From the NCBI GenBank assembly GCA_903840355.1, contig CAIMFJ010000004.1:248001-312000 (forward strand): DNA of 64,000 bases, given 5' to 3'. Shown piece by piece: positions 41,198 to 57,058 of the stretch (its first letter is position 1; every line of letters starts with the position of its first letter). A program made the position numbers and the translations under genes. The notes beneath the pieces are model-generated. The model was not told the DNA's origin. It saw only the letters and a list, made by a program, of their open reading frames with translations, and made no database searches. This stretch comes from an uncultured Opitutia bacterium (GTDB lineage: Bacteria; Verrucomicrobiota; Verrucomicrobiia; Opitutales; UBA953).

Positions 41198-41911
41198 ATG
41201 ACACCCCGTCTTTCCGCATTTCGCCGTTGGCTGACTGTAATGGTATTAGGCGTTTTAGTGCTTTTACCTCTGGGGTCGCTGGCTGCACCAACTCCAGAGG
41301 AGGCGAAGAAAATTCAGAACCTCAAACTATTGGCCGAGCAAGGGAATGCGAATGCTCAGTATGCTTTGGGGTATGGCCTCCTCATGGGGCAAGGTTTAGC
41401 CAAAGATCAAGTCGAAGCGGTCAAGTGGTTTCGTAAGGCTGCCGATCAAGATAATGTCCCCGCCCAAGTTTATCTCGGCCTGTGCTATTCGAATGGGGCC
41501 GGCGTGGCGAAAGATGAAGTGGCGGCAGTGAAATGGTTTCGCAAGGCCGCAGACCAAGGCAATGCCGATGCACAAGCTGCGCTGGGAGTTTGTTATAATA
41601 AAGGGGAAGGGGTGAACCAAGATGATGCCGAAGCGATTAAGTGGCATCAGAAGGCGGCGGACCAAGGTAATGCGAAGGCACAGTATAATCTCGGGCTGCA
41701 ATATTTTTTAGGCCATGGAGTGCCCAAGAATCTAGTCGAGGCTTATGCGTACATCAATTTAGCCGGAATTAGTAATGAGGAGTATCGTAAGCAACTTGGA
41801 GTCCTGGAAAAATACCTCACTCCTGAAGATCGGTTAAAAGGCCAGCAGCGTGCCAAGGTTCTCCAGAAAGAAATCGAAGCCAAGATTGTAGCGGCAAAGG
41901 CAGGGAAGTAA
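41198..41911 (+). CDS. Sel1-repeat exported protein, four repeats
   Basis: This 237-residue protein has a signal peptide (through about GSLAAP) and four Sel1-like repeats of ~36 residues. Each has the pattern A-x-AQ-x-x-LG-x-x-Y followed by G-x-GV-x-K (for example NANAQYALGY and GAGVAKDEVAAVKWFRKAA). The last ends in ATVEAYAYINLAG-type sequence. A charged helical tail follows (LTPEDRLKGQQRAKVLQKEIEAK). Two shorter paralogues follow in tandem. Sel1 proteins are usually binding scaffolds; the partner is unknown. Confidence 0.85.
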   Translation: MTPRLSAFRRWLTVMVLGVLVLLPLGSLAAPTPEEAKKIQNLKLLAEQGNANAQYALGYGLLMGQGLAKDQVEAVKWFRKAADQDNVPAQVYLGLCYSNGAGVAKDEVAAVKWFRKAADQGNADAQAALGVCYNKGEGVNQDDAEAIKWHQKAADQGNAKAQYNLGLQYFLGHGVPKNLVEAYAYINLAGISNEEYRKQLGVLEKYLTPEDRLKGQQRAKVLQKEIEAKIVAAKAGK

Positions 41912-42159
41912 GTTTTAGGACAAGTTCAACTTGCACCGCCTCCAGCCTAATAATTCTAACCCGTTTCTCCTGAGTGGAGGCAGGATTCTGATTCATGTAA
42001 ATGAAAAGGACTGTTCTTCGGTGTAAACGAGCGATTCTAATCCAATGTGGAATGTCGGTAGGGATTTATCCGATAACTTAGCAAATTTCTTGGTCTGTTC
42101 TTGGCTGCCTAATTTAGGTCAGGCTTGTCAGCGACTTTGGCTTCTATTAGAAATTCACT
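41912..42159 (+). other. Intergenic region between the first two Sel1 genes
   Basis: A 7-bp inverted repeat, GCCTCCA (41938-41944) and TGGAGGC (41975-41981), lies early in the gap without a T tail. At the downstream end CTTGTCA (42124-42130) and TCTATTAGAA (42143-42152) repeat elements seen upstream of the first Sel1 gene; TCTATTAGAA begins 17 bases before the ATG in both. No ORF is seen. Confidence 0.45.
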
Positions 42160-42777
42160 ATGGCTATTTTAAACATTCCTTCGCTGCGACGTTTAGCCAA
42201 GGCGGTCTCATGTATCTTAGTCTTAGTGCCGGCATTTTTAAGTGCAGGCATGAGTCCTGCGGAGATTAAGCAGTTTCAGGAAACGAAGGTTCTCGCCGAT
42301 CAAGGAAATCCCGCCGCCCAAGTTTGGCTGGGAACTTGCTACGCTTACGGTATCGGCGTTGCCAAAGATGGCGTGGCGGCGGTTCGGTTGTTTCGTAAGG
42401 TTGCCGAGCAGGGTGATGCCAGTGCCCAATATAATTTAGGGGTGTGCTACGACGTAGGTTTGGGGGTTGCGCAAGATGCCCCGGAGGCTGTGAAGTGGTA
42501 TCGCAAGGCGGCAGACCAGAGGTATGCGGGTGGACTGTACTGTCTGGCGACTTGCTATCAGAATGGAACAGGCGTCAGTAAAGATGAGATCGAGGCAGAT
42601 GCCTATCTGCACCTTGCGGGCATGAAATCTATGAGGCAACCGATGGACACGCGCCAGGAACTTGCTCGTCTTGAAGCAACCATGTCGCTTGAAGCTCGGT
42701 TAAAAGGCCAGCAGCGCGCGATCGAGCTCCAGAAAGAAATCGAAGCCAAGATTGTCGCGGCAAAGGTTGGGAAGTAG
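42160..42777 (+). CDS. Sel1-repeat exported protein, three repeats
   Basis: This 205-residue paralogue of the previous gene has a signal-like N-terminus (to about FLSAGM) and three Sel1 repeats (PAAQVWLGTCYAYGIGVAKD, SAQYNLGVCYDVGLGVAQD, and a divergent AGGLYCLATCYQNGTGVSKD; cores of each are LGTCYAYG, LGVCYDVG and LATCYQNG). The tail RLKGQQRAIELQKEIEAKIVAAKVGK is almost identical to that of the upstream gene. It is best explained as a tandem duplication with loss of one repeat. Confidence 0.85.
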   Translation: MAILNIPSLRRLAKAVSCILVLVPAFLSAGMSPAEIKQFQETKVLADQGNPAAQVWLGTCYAYGIGVAKDGVAAVRLFRKVAEQGDASAQYNLGVCYDVGLGVAQDAPEAVKWYRKAADQRYAGGLYCLATCYQNGTGVSKDEIEADAYLHLAGMKSMRQPMDTRQELARLEATMSLEARLKGQQRAIELQKEIEAKIVAAKVGK

Positions 42778-42840
42778 GCTGAATTTTAAGGGTAAGATAT
42801 TTTAAGTCGCTTCAAAACGACTAAAGGCTTTCCTTCTATC

Positions 42841-43209
42841 ATGTCCTTTTTGAGACAATCACGATTTTGGGAAGCAGTAGTATTAGTAATTGTAGGAGTC
42901 ATCCTCTTCATGGTAACGACCTCGAAGCCGTCAAAATTTTTTCAAGAAACTAAGATTTTAGCGGAGAAGGGAGATTTAACCGCTCAATACAATCTGGGCG
43001 TTTTATACGATGAAGGTGAAGGTGTTGCTAAGGATGAGATTGAGGCATACGCATACTTTAATCTCGCTGGAAGCCGTAATGAGGATGCCCGAAAGGAGCT
43101 TGCTCGTCTTGAAGCAAAACTGACCCCCGAAGCCCGACTAAAAGGGCAGCAGCGCGCCAAAGAATTGCAGAAAGAGATGGAGGCGAGAAACGCCTCCAAG
43201 AAGGACTAG
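42841..43209 (+). CDS. Short Sel1-repeat protein, one repeat
   Basis: This 122-residue third member has an N-terminal transmembrane helix (residues ~11-26) instead of a cleavable signal, a single Sel1 repeat (AQYNLGVLYDEGEGVAKDE), and the same tail (LTPEARLKGQQRAKELQKEMEAR). It lies 63 bases after the second gene, with no TCTATTAGAA motif upstream. It looks like a partial duplicate that is still open and probably expressed with its neighbour. Confidence 0.75.
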   Translation: MSFLRQSRFWEAVVLVIVGVILFMVTTSKPSKFFQETKILAEKGDLTAQYNLGVLYDEGEGVAKDEIEAYAYFNLAGSRNEDARKELARLEAKLTPEARLKGQQRAKELQKEMEARNASKKD

Positions 43210-43400: not shown

Positions 43401-44303
43401 TTAGGCGAGTCGGCCTAACGGAGTGCCAATTTTAGCGTAAACTTCGGTAGCGGTTTCGCCGGCGGTGACGAGGTCGGGCTCGAGCACGATTTTGCCAGGC
43501 TCGAAGAGGGTGACGAGGAAAGAGCCGCCAAAACGGAAGTAGCCTTTTTCATCTCCCTTCTGCACTGCGGTGTCGTTCTTGTAGGTTTCAATAATCGTCC
43601 CGACGTTGGTGGCTCCAATGGCAACGATGGTGACGAGTCCGAAGGGGCCGGCATCGATGCTCATGCGCTGACGTTTATTTTCCCAGAGGTAGCTGACGCG
43701 GCGGCGCAGAGCGATGGGGTTGACGGAGAAGAGCGGGCCAGGCGTGAGAACGGGTGCTCGGGCGATGCCCGCGACGGGGAAGTGGAAACGGTGATAATCC
43801 ACGGGGCAGAGCCGCGAGCACACGACAGTGCCTTGAGCGTAGCGTTCACCTAGGGCGCGGTCGGCGACCAGCGTGGGGATGTCGAAGGTTTGGCCCTTGG
43901 CAAAAATACTTAAAGCCTTGCTGGCGTTTTGAAAACCGAGGTGCCGACCATCGGCAGGCAAGATGGCGACATCGGACCGAGGGTCGATGGGGCGTGCACT
44001 GGTTTTTAGTTTGCGGTAAAAGAATTCATTAAACGTTTGGTAGGCGCTAACTGGCTCGGCGAATTCATCTGGGTTAAGACCGTATTCTTTTATAAAAGGC
44101 AAAATGCGGGCGGCACTGCTGGGTCGATCCATCGCTTGGCCGTAGAGTTTGGAGAAAATTGCCCGTTTTACTAAGGTGTGTAGGGTCAACTTCCCCAACG
44201 GGTTGCCGTAGAGTCGACGTAGCCATGCTTCGCCGTAAACCTGCTCGACTTCTCGAGCGCCCGTTTGGCGGTTGTGGAGGTAGATGGGGGCAGAAAGGTC
44301 CAT
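43401..44303 (-). CDS. psd: Phosphatidylserine decarboxylase
   Basis: This 300-residue enzyme makes phosphatidylethanolamine from phosphatidylserine in the inner membrane. Features are FNEFFYRKL near residue 90, RPIDPRSD, PADGRHLGF, the VDYHRFHFPVAG segment and the autocatalytic site region GYFRFGGSFLVTLFEPGKI (core FGGSFLV). Cleavage before the Ser would create the pyruvoyl group. The start ATG (MDLSAPIYLHN) is 13 codons inside the longest frame. The neighbours are a tRNA and the divergent ClpP-like genes, with no other lipid gene near. Confidence 0.92.
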   Translation of the reverse strand: MDLSAPIYLHNRQTGAREVEQVYGEAWLRRLYGNPLGKLTLHTLVKRAIFSKLYGQAMDRPSSAARILPFIKEYGLNPDEFAEPVSAYQTFNEFFYRKLKTSARPIDPRSDVAILPADGRHLGFQNASKALSIFAKGQTFDIPTLVADRALGERYAQGTVVCSRLCPVDYHRFHFPVAGIARAPVLTPGPLFSVNPIALRRRVSYLWENKRQRMSIDAGPFGLVTIVAIGATNVGTIIETYKNDTAVQKGDEKGYFRFGGSFLVTLFEPGKIVLEPDLVTAGETATEVYAKIGTPLGRLA

Positions 44304-44369
44304 GTGAGTAGATTTACAAAAAAATGACTTCAAGGAAGCCATTTATCTGTCAAAACAGGACTTACCCCT

Positions 44370-45566
44370 ATGTTGCGTCAGGCTTTGTTATTTTTCTCTC
44401 TGGTTGTAGTCCTTTCTGCCCAGCAAGGTCCCATTCGTAAAAGCCCTGAGACCATCGAAGCCGAGGTGCAGGCGGAATTAATTCGTGCCAAACTGGATTT
44501 GGCCGCTTCCCAACGTCGCTTGGAGGAATTGGTGACGACTTTAGAAATCCGTAAATTGGAGTCGGAGGCTGGTTTGCGGATGGCTCGAGCCGAGGCTTTG
44601 AGTGCGAAGGGGGAGGCGGAACGCGCTCGTTTAAATTTGGAGTCCTCGCTGGCCGCTTGGCGAGCGGTGGCAGCTTCGAGTGATAAAGATCGGGCGCGGG
44701 CGGAACTTGAAGCCGAAGCTCATTTAGCAGCTGCCCGGGCGGCCGTTGATTACGCCAAAGTCGGTAGTGTGGCGACGATTGCACGTCTCCAACAAAAAGC
44801 CGCAGACATTGCAGCGAGTGCCAAAATCGAACATCCCCTTGATCCTTTAGTAGATGGCGTTTTGCACATCAGCGAGCGCCGTATCGCTTTCAATGGCATC
44901 GTGAACGACAATCTGGCTAAACACGTCAGTGATCAGATTGCTTTCTTTAACGCCCAAGACCCGACGTCCCCCATCTTTATCGTCATTGATCGCTCGCCGG
45001 GCGGCTCGGTCATGTCGGGTTATTTAATTTTGCAGGCTATGGAAACTTCGAAGGCCCCCGTGTATGTGGTGGTCAAAGGTTACTGTGCTTCGATGGCCGC
45101 AATTATCACTACTTTAGCGAAGCGCTCTTTCGTTTATCCGCAGACGATTGTTTTACACCACCAAGCCTCGACGGGGTTGAGCGGTAATATGACGCAACTC
45201 CAGGAGCAGTTAAAGTGGTCTAAGATTTGGTGTGAACGGATTTTTATTAAAGTGGCGCAACGCATTGGTGTCCCTCTCGATGATTTTGTCGCTAATATGT
45301 ATAAAGCCACGTCGACGGGTGACTGGCGGGTTACGGGTGATGATGCTGGACGTATGAAATGGGTCACTGACGTTGTGGAACGCATGACCGAAGACAGTTT
45401 CACGGCTGGTTCGAACGCCCCTGCGCCTGCTCCTTTGCCGCTGACAGGTTTTGGTGATACGGAAAGCAAGGCGGGTAATGCCTTGATTAAAGAAGAACTC
45501 CAACCGCTCGGTCCTTGCGACCTGTGGTGGATTTATGACCCCCGCATCCAATACATCCTTCGCTAA
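44370..45566 (+). CDS. Exported ClpP-like protease with N-terminal coiled coil, copy 1
   Basis: This 398-residue protein has a signal peptide (about residues 1-17, ending LSA), a long Ala/Glu/Arg coiled coil (~25-150) and a ClpP-fold domain (~155-340). Similarity to ClpP is plain: ERRIAFNGIVNDNLAKHVSDQ, the SPGGSVMSGY turn, the nucleophile in GYCASMAA (Ser241), His264 in VLHHQ and Asp318 in STGDW. Spacings of 23 and 54 residues compare with 26 and 51 in the ordinary ClpP of this window. The C-terminus ends in DLWWIYDP. ClpP normally works in the cytoplasm with an AAA+ unfoldase; no such partner is encoded here. A paralogue follows after nine bases. Confidence 0.85.
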   Translation: MLRQALLFFSLVVVLSAQQGPIRKSPETIEAEVQAELIRAKLDLAASQRRLEELVTTLEIRKLESEAGLRMARAEALSAKGEAERARLNLESSLAAWRAVAASSDKDRARAELEAEAHLAAARAAVDYAKVGSVATIARLQQKAADIAASAKIEHPLDPLVDGVLHISERRIAFNGIVNDNLAKHVSDQIAFFNAQDPTSPIFIVIDRSPGGSVMSGYLILQAMETSKAPVYVVVKGYCASMAAIITTLAKRSFVYPQTIVLHHQASTGLSGNMTQLQEQLKWSKIWCERIFIKVAQRIGVPLDDFVANMYKATSTGDWRVTGDDAGRMKWVTDVVERMTEDSFTAGSNAPAPAPLPLTGFGDTESKAGNALIKEELQPLGPCDLWWIYDPRIQYILR

Positions 45567-45575
45567 TTTTATATC

Positions 45576-46949
45576 ATGAAACTATCGCTTGTTTTACGCA
45601 CGTTGGCTCTAGCCAGTTTGGTGGCGCTGCCCTTGGCGGCCCAGCAAACCACGCATCGTGCTGCGCCTGCTCCTGACGGGGCTAATACTGCGGGCAATGC
45701 TTTGCCCGCCTCGCCGGGCATGCCCACCGCTCCCGCTCAGCCCACGACGTTGCCTCCTGGCCCAGGCATCAATCGTGAGGAATTAACGCCGGAGCAAAAG
45801 GCTCTGATGAAAGAAGTGGATCGCATGCGTGCCGAGAAAGCACGTCTCGATGCGCAAGTCGCGTTGGCGGAGGCCAAACGGGTCGAAGAATTAGCTCCCG
45901 TCAATGCTGAGACGCAAAAGTTAGCGGCCGAACGTGCGTTGCGTTTAGCTAAAGCGGCTTCGGAGGCTGCCGCGTTGGAAGATGAGCGAGCCAAGTTGGA
46001 GCGCCAAACGGCGCTCGAGTCTGCTCGGTCCGCCGCCCGCTTGTCGGAACGGAATAACAAAATTCGCGAACTCGAAGCCGAAGCTAAGCAATTGCAATTA
46101 GAGTCCGCTAATACCGTCGCCCGTTTGAGCAATGAAATCGCCCGTTATCAGAAGGAGGAAGAAGCACGTAAGGTGGCCATTAAGGCGAAGCCGAAGTATC
46201 TCAAGGATCCGCTGGTTGATGGCACACTCTACATCAGCGATCGTCGCATTGCTTTTAATGGGGCCGTGACGGAGCAGTTAGCTGATTACGTCAGCCAACG
46301 GATTAATTTTTATAACAATCAATCATCGGAGTACCCCATCTTCATCGTAGTGGATAATAGCCCAGGAGGTTCCGTTGCCGCTGGTTATCAAATTCAGAAA
46401 GCGATGGCTGGCTCGAAGGCCCCCGTTTATGTTGTGGTTAAAGGCTTTGCCGCTTCGATGACGGCAGTGATTGCGACCTTGGCGGAGCGCTCTTATTGCT
46501 ACCCCAACACCATCATCCTTCATCACCAAGTCTCGAATACCTTACGCGGTAACATGACGGTGCTGAAGGAACAGATTGATTTCACGAATCGCTGGTTTGA
46601 GCGTTTTGGTACTCCCGTGGCTAAGAAGATGGGCCTCACGCTCCCCGAATTTGTGAAGCAAATGTATGCGAATGACTCCACCGGTGATTGGCAGGCGTTT
46701 GGCGAAAAAGCCCATGAGTTGAAGTGGATTGATCAGGTGGTTGAGCGGATTGAAGAAACCGCCATTTTAGACCTCTTGCCGCCCGTATCGAATAATACCC
46801 CCGCCATCCACCCGCCAATGTCGGAGATTTCAGGGGTAGCGACTAAAACGGACGAAAAAGGGCGGATTTATTTCGAGCTTCCGCCCTTATCGAATCCTTT
46901 TGACGCATGGTGGCTTTACGATCCCCAGGGTTTATTCCGCGCCCGCTAA
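45576..46949 (+). CDS. Exported ClpP-like protease with N-terminal coiled coil, copy 2
   Basis: This 457-residue paralogue has a signal peptide (to about PLAAQ), a Pro/Ala-rich linker (~25-65), a coiled coil (~70-200) and a ClpP-fold domain (~205-395). The triad is Ser294 (GFAASMTA), His317 (ILHHQ) and Asp371 (STGDW), with the same spacing as copy 1. The C-terminus ends AWWLYDPQ, matching the WWIYDP of copy 1. Both copies share DPLVDG at the domain start and GNM after the catalytic His. The two genes are nine bases apart and a terminator follows, so they probably form a two-gene operon and perhaps a mixed ring. Confidence 0.85.
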   Translation: MKLSLVLRTLALASLVALPLAAQQTTHRAAPAPDGANTAGNALPASPGMPTAPAQPTTLPPGPGINREELTPEQKALMKEVDRMRAEKARLDAQVALAEAKRVEELAPVNAETQKLAAERALRLAKAASEAAALEDERAKLERQTALESARSAARLSERNNKIRELEAEAKQLQLESANTVARLSNEIARYQKEEEARKVAIKAKPKYLKDPLVDGTLYISDRRIAFNGAVTEQLADYVSQRINFYNNQSSEYPIFIVVDNSPGGSVAAGYQIQKAMAGSKAPVYVVVKGFAASMTAVIATLAERSYCYPNTIILHHQVSNTLRGNMTVLKEQIDFTNRWFERFGTPVAKKMGLTLPEFVKQMYANDSTGDWQAFGEKAHELKWIDQVVERIEETAILDLLPPVSNNTPAIHPPMSEISGVATKTDEKGRIYFELPPLSNPFDAWWLYDPQGLFRAR

Positions 46950-53319: not shown

Positions 53320-55542
53320 TTAGCGCGATTTCGGGTCTGCGGGCGCTGGCTGGGAGGAGGCCAGAGGCTTCTTGCTCAATTCTGCAGTCCAGTCGGCGGC
53401 GATGCGGACGGCCTCTTGGAGTTGGATGTCATACTCGGGCCAGTCATCGTCTTCCAGGGGCTCGGTGATGCGACCCGTGCGACGGGCCTTGGCGGTCGAC
53501 TCAGGGCCGTCTTTCTTCTCCTGCTCCAAGACGGCGTTGAGTTTCACATCCTTGGCTTTGAAGGCGTTCTTCGAGTAGGCGAGCAGTTCTTTCTTTACCT
53601 GTTCGCGGAAGGTGAGGTCGTCCTGACGCTCTTGTTTACGTTGATCGAGGGAGAGGGGGATTTCCTTTCGATTCTGACGCATCTTGGTCCATTCGATGTT
53701 ATGATTCAGCGTCGTGAACTCAGGCAGCTCGGCCTGACGGCGGGTGCTGTTTTTGGTCAAGGTGGCAATCAGTTCATCGGAGAGCTTGGCTTTTAACCAA
53801 TCGCCCTCGTCGGGCTTGGTCAGCGTAGGCGTTACGGAGTCCCAGGGCAGGGGACGATCTAAATCGGCCTCGGCGACAGGCAGGACGGAGAAAACAGAAG
53901 GGACAATGATATCAGCCGGGACGCCCTTGAGTTGGATGGAAGAACCGCTGGGTGCGTACCACTTTTGAATCGTGACCTTAACGGCGGACTTGAGTTGCTT
54001 GTCGAAGCGGGCGAGTTCGATAATGTTCTGCACTGAACCTTTGCCGTGGGTAGTTGCGTCGCCCACGATGATGGCACGGCGGTGGTCATGCATCGCTCCG
54101 GTGAAGATTTCGGAGGCAGAAGCCGATAACTTAGATGTTAAGACAATCAGCGGGCCATCCCAGGCCACTTTTTCATCTTCATCGCGGTAGTCTTCAGAGC
54201 GGCCTTGGCCATCGCGTACTTGGACGATGGACCCTTTGGGAATGAAGAGGCCCGAGATATCGACGGCTTCATTGAGTAAACCGCCGCCGTTTTTGCGAAG
54301 GTCCATGATGAGGGCCTTCATGCCGAGGGCTTTTAATTTCTCGATGAGCTCTTCGATGTCTTTGGTGGGGCTGGAGCCACTACCATCAGGATTCTTGCCG
54401 TAGAAAGCGGGCAGGTCGATGACCCCGAGCATCACGGTATTATTGCCATTAGGGACTTCGAAGCAGCGAGCCGAGGCCAATTGGCCGACGAGTTTAATTT
54501 GGTCGCGTTTGAGGAGGACCGTTTTGCGTCCGCCGCCCGACCCCGATTCGATTAGGAGTTTAACAAAGGTATTTTGCTTCCCGCGAATCCGGCCGATGGC
54601 TTTGGTTAGGCGCATGCCGATGATCTCTTCCATTTCGCCATCGGAACCTTGACCAACGGAGATGATTTTATCGCCAGCTTTTACTTGGCGGGAGAGGTCG
54701 AGGGGGCCGCCGGGCAAGATTTCCTTAATTGTGCAGTAGCCATCCTCATCTTGCAGGGTTGCGCCGATACCCACGAGGGAGTTGCGCATCGCGATTTCAA
54801 ATTCTTCTAACGATTGTTGCGAGAAGAAGGTTGAGTGGGGGTCGTACTGATTCGTGTAGGCATTCAGGAACAGCTCTTCCACTTCGTATTGATCGTATTG
54901 CAGGTAAGTGCGGGACTTGTCGTAACGCTTCTTTAAGCGAGCGATGGATTCTTTGATTTTCTCTGGGGTGATGGTGGGGATGCCCGTCTCTTTGTGGCTG
55001 GATTTGGGCTCATTGGTCCGGTCTTCGCCGAGCAGTTCCGAAAGCATATCCATGCGGATGCGTTTTTGCCAGAGGTCGGCGACATCGTCTTCAGTGGCGG
55101 GCCAAGGGGCTTTGCGACGGTCGATAGGGAAGACACCAGGTTGGTTTAATTCAATCGGTTGATCTAAGGCCGCCAAAGCAGACTCCGTCCGCGTTTGCAC
55201 CTTCTTGTGGAATTGCTGGTAGATTTCAAAGGCGGGCGTCAAGTTGCCGCGTTGTAAGTAGAGGTCGAGCGTCTTGCCGTAACGGTTGACGAAGTCATCG
55301 ACTTCCTTGGCGTTGAAATAGATTTTATTGGGGTCGAGCTTTTCGCAGAACGTGCGCAGCACACTATCCATATCGACGTTCGACATCTCCTTTTTACTGA
55401 TGTGCAGTTTTTCCAATAAAATAGCCGTGGCCCGGGTTTCTTTCTGCATGGCCTCGGTCGTGGTGAACGTCGGGGCTTCGGGCGTGGCGGCAGAGACTAG
55501 CAGGGTTAAGCCAGCTAGGAGCGTCGTGGGGATTAATCGCAT
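53320..55542 (-). CDS. prc: Tail-specific (C-terminal processing) protease, S41 family
   Basis: This 740-residue periplasmic protease has a signal peptide (to about VSAATP), an N-terminal helical domain (~30-230), a PDZ domain (~250-340, with VGIGATLQDEDGYCTIKEILPGGP, core IKEILPGGP) and an S41 catalytic domain. The Ser nucleophile is in SKLSASASEIFTGA and the Lys general base in THGKGSVQ. The C-terminal ~150 residues are charged helices as in long Prc/Tsp proteins. It is the last gene of clpP-rhomboid-prc, starting nine bases after the rhomboid stop. Confidence 0.93.
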   Translation of the reverse strand: MRLIPTTLLAGLTLLVSAATPEAPTFTTTEAMQKETRATAILLEKLHISKKEMSNVDMDSVLRTFCEKLDPNKIYFNAKEVDDFVNRYGKTLDLYLQRGNLTPAFEIYQQFHKKVQTRTESALAALDQPIELNQPGVFPIDRRKAPWPATEDDVADLWQKRIRMDMLSELLGEDRTNEPKSSHKETGIPTITPEKIKESIARLKKRYDKSRTYLQYDQYEVEELFLNAYTNQYDPHSTFFSQQSLEEFEIAMRNSLVGIGATLQDEDGYCTIKEILPGGPLDLSRQVKAGDKIISVGQGSDGEMEEIIGMRLTKAIGRIRGKQNTFVKLLIESGSGGGRKTVLLKRDQIKLVGQLASARCFEVPNGNNTVMLGVIDLPAFYGKNPDGSGSSPTKDIEELIEKLKALGMKALIMDLRKNGGGLLNEAVDISGLFIPKGSIVQVRDGQGRSEDYRDEDEKVAWDGPLIVLTSKLSASASEIFTGAMHDHRRAIIVGDATTHGKGSVQNIIELARFDKQLKSAVKVTIQKWYAPSGSSIQLKGVPADIIVPSVFSVLPVAEADLDRPLPWDSVTPTLTKPDEGDWLKAKLSDELIATLTKNSTRRQAELPEFTTLNHNIEWTKMRQNRKEIPLSLDQRKQERQDDLTFREQVKKELLAYSKNAFKAKDVKLNAVLEQEKKDGPESTAKARRTGRITEPLEDDDWPEYDIQLQEAVRIAADWTAELSKKPLASSQPAPADPKSR

Positions 55543-56449: not shown

Positions 56450-57058
56450 TTAGAGTTTCTTGACGATGGCGTCCGCCAAACCGTATTCAATCGCCTCTTC
56501 AGCCGTCATGTAGAAATCGCGATCGGTGTCTTTAATCACTTTATCGAGTTTCTGCTTGGAGGCTTTAGCGAGGATATCGTTGAGCTCGGTACGAAGGCGT
56601 TCCATTTCTTGGGCCTGAATGTGGATGTCCACCGCCGGGGCTTGAATACGGCCCATAATCAGGGGTTGGTGAATCATCACGCGGGCGTGGGGGAAGAGCA
56701 AGCGCCCGCCCTTTTCCTTAGGGGCTTGGAGTAGGATGGACCCCATTGAGGCAGCCATACCCGTGACCACGACTTTAACAGGCGAACTAATTAGACGGAT
56801 CGTGTCATAGACAGCCATCCCTGCGGTGATAGAGCCACCTGGGGTGTTGATATAGAACGTGATTTCTTTGCCGGGCTCGGCGGCGTCTAAGTAGAGAAGC
56901 TTTTCGACAATGTCCTTGGCAGAAGCATCGTCGACGCCACCCCAGAGGAAAATTTTCCGTTGTTCCAAAAATTTCTTTTGGATGAGCATGGCAGAGGGAG
57001 GAGACTCCTTGGCGACCTCGGGGGTCTTTTCGTCCTCGTCTTCGTCTTCTTTTGGCAT
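56450..57058 (-). CDS. clpP: ATP-dependent Clp protease proteolytic subunit
   Basis: This 202-residue subunit forms the proteolytic chamber of cytoplasmic Clp proteases. The triad is Ser104 (GMAASMGS), His130 (VMIHQPL) and Asp181 (DTDRDFYM), with the YINTPGGSITAGM turn. It begins with an unusually acidic segment (residues 3-14). The first gene of the clpP-rhomboid-prc unit, it is a normal cytoplasmic ClpP with no signal peptide and makes a useful contrast to the two exported ClpP-like proteins. No clpX or clpA is in the window. Confidence 0.94.
   Translation of the reverse strand: MPKEDEDEDEKTPEVAKESPPSAMLIQKKFLEQRKIFLWGGVDDASAKDIVEKLLYLDAAEPGKEITFYINTPGGSITAGMAVYDTIRLISSPVKVVVTGMAASMGSILLQAPKEKGGRLLFPHARVMIHQPLIMGRIQAPAVDIHIQAQEMERLRTELNDILAKASKQKLDKVIKDTDRDFYMTAEEAIEYGLADAIVKKL

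Follow-up and report, generated by a model that had tools for sequence, protein, structure and literature searches.

How might a ClpP protease choose its substrates outside the cytoplasm? ClpP is the textbook protease that owes its selectivity to an ATP-driven partner, and the question is raised by two adjacent open reading frames (ORFs), here called A and B, in a 64,000-nucleotide stretch of DNA from an uncultured Opitutia bacterium. This whole stretch, the window, is C4:248001-312000 (contig C4) within a genome of 2.27 Mb, and its closest relatives are Opitutales-like Verrucomicrobiota metagenome-assembled genomes. Our answer, held with a little more belief than doubt, is that A and B are exported ClpP-fold serine peptidases, members of a Verrucomicrobiota family that acts extracytoplasmically, unaided by any ATP-driven unfoldase, and carries its helices over the axial entrance.

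Two adjacent exported ClpP-fold proteins had been proposed at 44370-46949 in an initial annotation of the window, and both ORFs were recovered there together with their signal peptides and their matches to PF00574. They share the plus strand, with a gap of 9 bases, and a common plan of signal peptide, long helix, ClpP body and tail:

44370-45566, plus strand: ORF A, exported ClpP-like protease, 398 amino acids (signal peptide, helix 26-150, ClpP body 159-341, tail)
44370-44420, plus strand: A, signal peptide predicted from the sequence, residues 1-17, VVVLSA before QQ
44445-44819, plus strand: A, long helix, residues 26-150, rich in Ala/Glu/Arg, 25-residue repeat
44844-45392, plus strand: A, ClpP body, residues 159-341, holding Ser241, His264 and Asp318
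45480-45563, plus strand: A, conserved C-terminal tail, residues 371-398, ending LQPLGPCDLWWIYDPRIQYILR
45576-46949, plus strand: ORF B, exported ClpP-like protease, 457 amino acids (signal peptide, disordered linker, helix 72-203, ClpP body 212-394, tail)
45576-45641, plus strand: B, signal peptide predicted from the sequence, residues 1-22, LPLAA before QQ
45789-46184, plus strand: B, long helix, residues 72-203, 25-residue units beginning near 87, 112, 137, 162 and 187
46209-46757, plus strand: B, ClpP body, residues 212-394, holding Ser294, His317 and Asp371; Lys289 and Gly370 family-invariant
46860-46946, plus strand: B, conserved C-terminal tail, residues 429-457, ending LPPLSNPFDAWWLYDPQGLFRAR

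Fold, catalytic triad and export

Both proteins match PF00574 above its gathering cut-off of 20.2 bits, A with 78.1 bits (E = 1e-21) and B with 69.1 bits (E = 5.9e-19). Structure prediction agrees: ClpP heads the structural matches of the AlphaFold2 (AF2) models (Foldseek E = 6.7e-16 for B; VIA Z 23 for A and for B), the tightest having root-mean-square deviations of 1.7-2 Å across ~165 residues, although these match lists, filled by ClpP, bear on the ClpP body and hardly on helix or tail. The triads named in the initial annotation are also in place, Ser241/His264/Asp318 of A and Ser294/His317/Asp371 of B aligning to Ser97/His122/Asp171 of Escherichia coli ClpP. Among the 127 distinct full-length homologues that form our family set, 126 have the triad, and likewise the oxyanion motif, over deep divergence; the spacing of Ser and His is 23 in every one. 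The lone triad exception, with G/S/E instead, is a lipobox-bearing second copy in genome G103 (L132 8425-9837, called L107 65-1477), likely a pseudoprotease partner of its neighbour.

That second copy, lacking all three triad residues, gives some encouragement to the idea of a holdase or scaffold in the periplasm, in which the ClpP fold serves assembly, little or no proteolysis remains and the helices work as Skp-like tentacles. Retention of triad and oxyanion motifs everywhere else speaks against it, and we regard it as very improbable.

By profile and fold A and B are S14 ClpP proteins, yet they fail the tests for ATP-dependent ClpP subunits. A scores 55.6 bits against a cut-off of 308.6 for TIGR00493, 63.5 against 249 for PRK00277 and 68.7 against 228 for PRK12553, and B is similar. 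The two proteins also fall below the cut-offs of the SppA (S49) profile (21.5 and 24.0 against 155 bits) and of the phage ClpP-like head maturation protease profile (51.8/54.4 against 120 bits), as does B for the Pfam NfeD1b_N profile (22.9 bits against 40), which A does not match at all.

Other proteases of this general fold occur outside the cytoplasm. SppA, the S49 signal peptide peptidase, is like A and B an envelope protease with a ClpP-like fold; it belongs to a different family and has a Ser-Lys dyad across domains. The same genome encodes an SppA at C4:391993-393186. NfeD1b/PH1510-N, again outside the cytoplasm and with a Ser-Lys dyad, resembles A and B as a ClpP-class serine protease associated with long helices, which in NfeD1b are the partner's. 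Those proteins are membrane-anchored and their partner is a separate gene, whereas here there is only the sub-threshold profile match. The open-access literature searched contained no description of an exported ClpP, in keeping with the initial annotation, to which no described system of this plan was known.

Each protein opens with a signal peptide of textbook form, MLRQALLFFSLVVVLSA before QQ in A and MKLSLVLRTLALASLVALPLAA before QQ in B, both being called by a home-made rule, not SignalP, that looks for a hydrophobic core, a positive N-region and a -3/-1 site. The rule called a signal peptide in 115 of 128 homologues, the control rates in the same proteins being 4% for internal Met starts and 10% for shuffled N-termini, and in none of three ordinary ClpPs; most of the homologues that it missed resemble signal peptides by eye. 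A lipobox is present in the second copies of L079, L080, L082, L084, L085 and L088, and in L107. Its occurrence in second copies of gut Opitutales (LMFAGC, LVLSGC and LLLGGC, for example) is independent support for export, while most members carry an ordinary cleavable signal without an anchor. We consider the export, fold and triad of the family well supported by computation.

A family with replaced docking and ring-sensor residues

Cytoplasmic ClpP (MEROPS S14, PF00574) shares with the new family the fold (Z 23), the Ser-His-Asp triad, the oxyanion motif and a handle helix of similar length. The new family differs in being exported and in having a ~115-residue N-terminal helix, an extra C-terminal tail and a 5-residue insert. 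It differs, too, in being without unfoldase docking chemistry. Met92, Phe82 and Tyr62 of E. coli ClpP belong to the hydrophobic docking pocket for the LGF loop of the unfoldase ClpX. The Met92 position is Lys in all 127 homologues, that of Phe82 is Ala, Thr, Ser or Gly and that of Tyr62 is Val or Ile; the aromatics at 60, 112 and 114 are retained, and ordinary ClpPs themselves vary at 92 (M, T or I). Equally, the position of the ring-ring sensor Arg170 is Gly in 127 of 127, with Arg retained in the three ordinary ClpPs. In Staphylococcus aureus ClpP, Arg171 forms a salt bridge with Asp170 across rings (PMC6110781). Replacement of docking and ring-sensor residues throughout the family is what would be expected if no AAA+ unfoldase serves it, and strengthens the earlier suggestion that none is used.

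The insert lies ahead of the catalytic Asp and has an invariant Met-Tyr (MY...), the Asp itself standing in an invariant context of TGDW type. The tail motif P..DxxxxYDP is found in 117 of the 127 homologues and usually places its Asp 15 residues from the end; in the AF2 model of B the tail has a predicted local distance difference test score (pLDDT) of about 84.

In a sample of 273 genomes from the order, 43 had strong matches (E = 1e-20); in a phylum-wide sample of 388 there were 32 (E = 1e-14), with a patchy distribution that includes other classes. Orthologues of the same plan across the phylum argue that the arrangement did not arise by chance. No member was found in 149 Bacillota genomes, whose lone match (1e-12) was to an open frame of 224 residues that aligned at the ClpP body alone. 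The searches left out the chromosomes of Planctomycetota, Bacteroidota and Pseudomonadota, and restriction to Verrucomicrobiota is therefore not established. Purifying selection is evident between loci L036 and L039, with ratios of nonsynonymous to synonymous substitution rates (dN/dS) of 0.20 (A) and 0.12 (B); relative to the window, dS is saturated.

In a tree of the ClpP bodies, with an outgroup of only three ordinary ClpP rows on a long branch, the whole family lies on one side of the very long branch that separates it from them (Shimodaira-Hasegawa-like approximate likelihood ratio test, SH-aLRT, 100). This separate clade and the two other ClpPs in the genome rule out a displaced housekeeping copy, as the initial annotation had held. 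Both of the others are ordinary: the cytoplasmic one that it had reported in the window, found at 56450-57058 on the minus strand, and one at C8:111960 (contig C8). The window copy falls below most clpP equivalog cut-offs and has a lower Pfam score than that on C8; the two may be ClpP1/ClpP2. An origin from phages or plasmids was also rejected. The 36 phage records that align do so at the ClpP body only, with at most about 32% identity and none spanning 80% of the query; viral contigs held no relatives, and plasmids gave ordinary clpP only.

The long helix as a possible gate

The long coiled coil of the initial annotation is partly borne out. In the AF2 models a single uninterrupted helix, at residues 26-150 of A and 72-203 of B (pLDDT mostly 70-90), continues into the ClpP body. 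The family profile has a 25-residue repeat (z 7.9 against column permutations, the highest score among lags 3-44), and Leu recurs near positions 5 and 11 of the unit. Seven turns per 25 residues gives 3.57 residues per turn, nearly straight; a peak at 3.12 represents the repeat's eighth harmonic. The heptad, by contrast, left no peak. The distance between anchors (L97 to P212 of B) is 115 residues in A and B alike and in 88 homologues overall, 114-118 in 120 of 127, and 33 longer in four others. Such near-constant length is not expected of a disordered linker. For both A and B, VIA aligns the end of the helix with ClpP residues about 3-10, the axial N-terminus, at the site that in ordinary ClpP receives the ATP-driven partner, and from this position a role as adaptor or gate is plausible.

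Computation shows a Sec-type signal, in some relatives a lipoprotein signal, and a ~115-residue helix that meets the ClpP body at the origin of the axial N-terminal loops, along with the intact triad and the lost docking and ring-lock residues. We propose that the subunits assemble into a ring, probably heptameric, that encloses the active sites, and that the helices project from its axial face as a collar or tentacles, replacing both gate and unfoldase. Entry past them would then be limited to envelope proteins and peptides in an unfolded or loosely folded state, which the helices would screen or gather. The conserved C-terminal tail may pack on the body and help to keep an open or assembled state. 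Ring assembly, helix gating and substrates are what we infer here. In its fullest form, an extracytoplasmic self-compartmentalised ClpP family that dispenses with ATP and with any AAA+ partner, a built-in, fixed-length helical barrel taking over gating and substrate filtering from the unfoldase, the proposal is tentative, and we give it somewhat less than an even chance.

Several points weigh against our main answer, in its plainer form too. The signal calls come from our own rule, and start codons were picked with that rule in mind, favouring positives. The alignments behind the AF2 models contain close relatives only (identity ~35% and up). The 3.5-residue peak of a heptad coiled coil was not found in the helix, the canonical coiled-coil nature of which is less clear. 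Without the Arg sensor there might be no double ring, or no ring. Gating of entry by the helix is suggested by its position, and ATP-independent peptidase activity of A and B is predicted from sequence.

The main rival is an envelope-anchored processing protease, in which the helix would be a spacer or scaffold holding the enzyme at a fixed distance from membrane or cell wall while a single ring or small oligomer makes specific cuts. A helix that is Ala/Glu-rich and of fixed length across the phylum would suit it, as would the lipoprotein signal of several gut members and the Gly at the ring-ring Arg position throughout the family. SPFH helices offer a spacer precedent for NfeD-type ClpP-fold proteases. 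In NfeD1b proteins the ClpP domain is joined to an SPFH partner operon (PMC2636767). However, the NfeD1b_N match is weak, the triad is Ser-His-Asp, no SPFH gene adjoins across classes and most members have a cleavable signal and no anchor. We judge this rival unlikely, if deserving of serious attention, and prefer peptidases gated by their helices.

The A/B pair and its surroundings

The pairing of A and B had suggested a mixed oligomer. Mixed rings of ClpP1/ClpP2 and ClpP/ClpR are likewise built from paralogues of one fold, one of them sometimes catalytically dead; those rings lie in the cytoplasm or in plastids and are partnered by AAA+ unfoldases. The 9-base gap, the equal helices of A and B and the retention of the pair in most genera of one family of Opitutales-like genomes (f1) would fit an obligate A/B oligomer as the functional unit. 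Paired homologues do recur in that family, and G532 has a second, separate tandem duplication, but elsewhere, in other families and classes, there is mostly one copy. There the protein must work alone, and a mixed oligomer is not the basic plan. The tree agrees with a later origin of the pair by duplication, although some of its inner branches lack good support. The A/B pair is a lineage-specific tandem duplication within f1, and an obligate mixed oligomer seems improbable to us. In duplicated lineages an A/B heteromer is possible: A and B may build mixed rings in which one has turned regulatory subunit, as the triad-less relative might illustrate.

No gene neighbour is conserved across classes, which argues against an operon-encoded unfoldase, and an operon partner was rejected on the same ground, shared neighbours occurring only inside f1. 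One of these, conserved in f1 only, is the phosphatidylserine decarboxylase upstream of the pair (43401-44342, minus strand), divergent from ORF A with 27 bp between the listed starts; its true start may be an internal Met (MDLSAPIY). Further upstream, at 41198-43209 on the plus strand, are three successive Sel1-repeat proteins whose N-termini resemble signal peptides or membrane anchors by eye. At 53320-55542 on the minus strand, near the ordinary clpP, lies a Tsp/Prc-like carboxy-terminal processing protease (S41), so that the window carries several proteases.

If the proposal is true, the family shows how ClpP can choose substrates without ATP, and it adds a protein-quality-control enzyme to the little-known envelope of Verrucomicrobiota. 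It would also provide a testable model of the evolution of ClpP gating.
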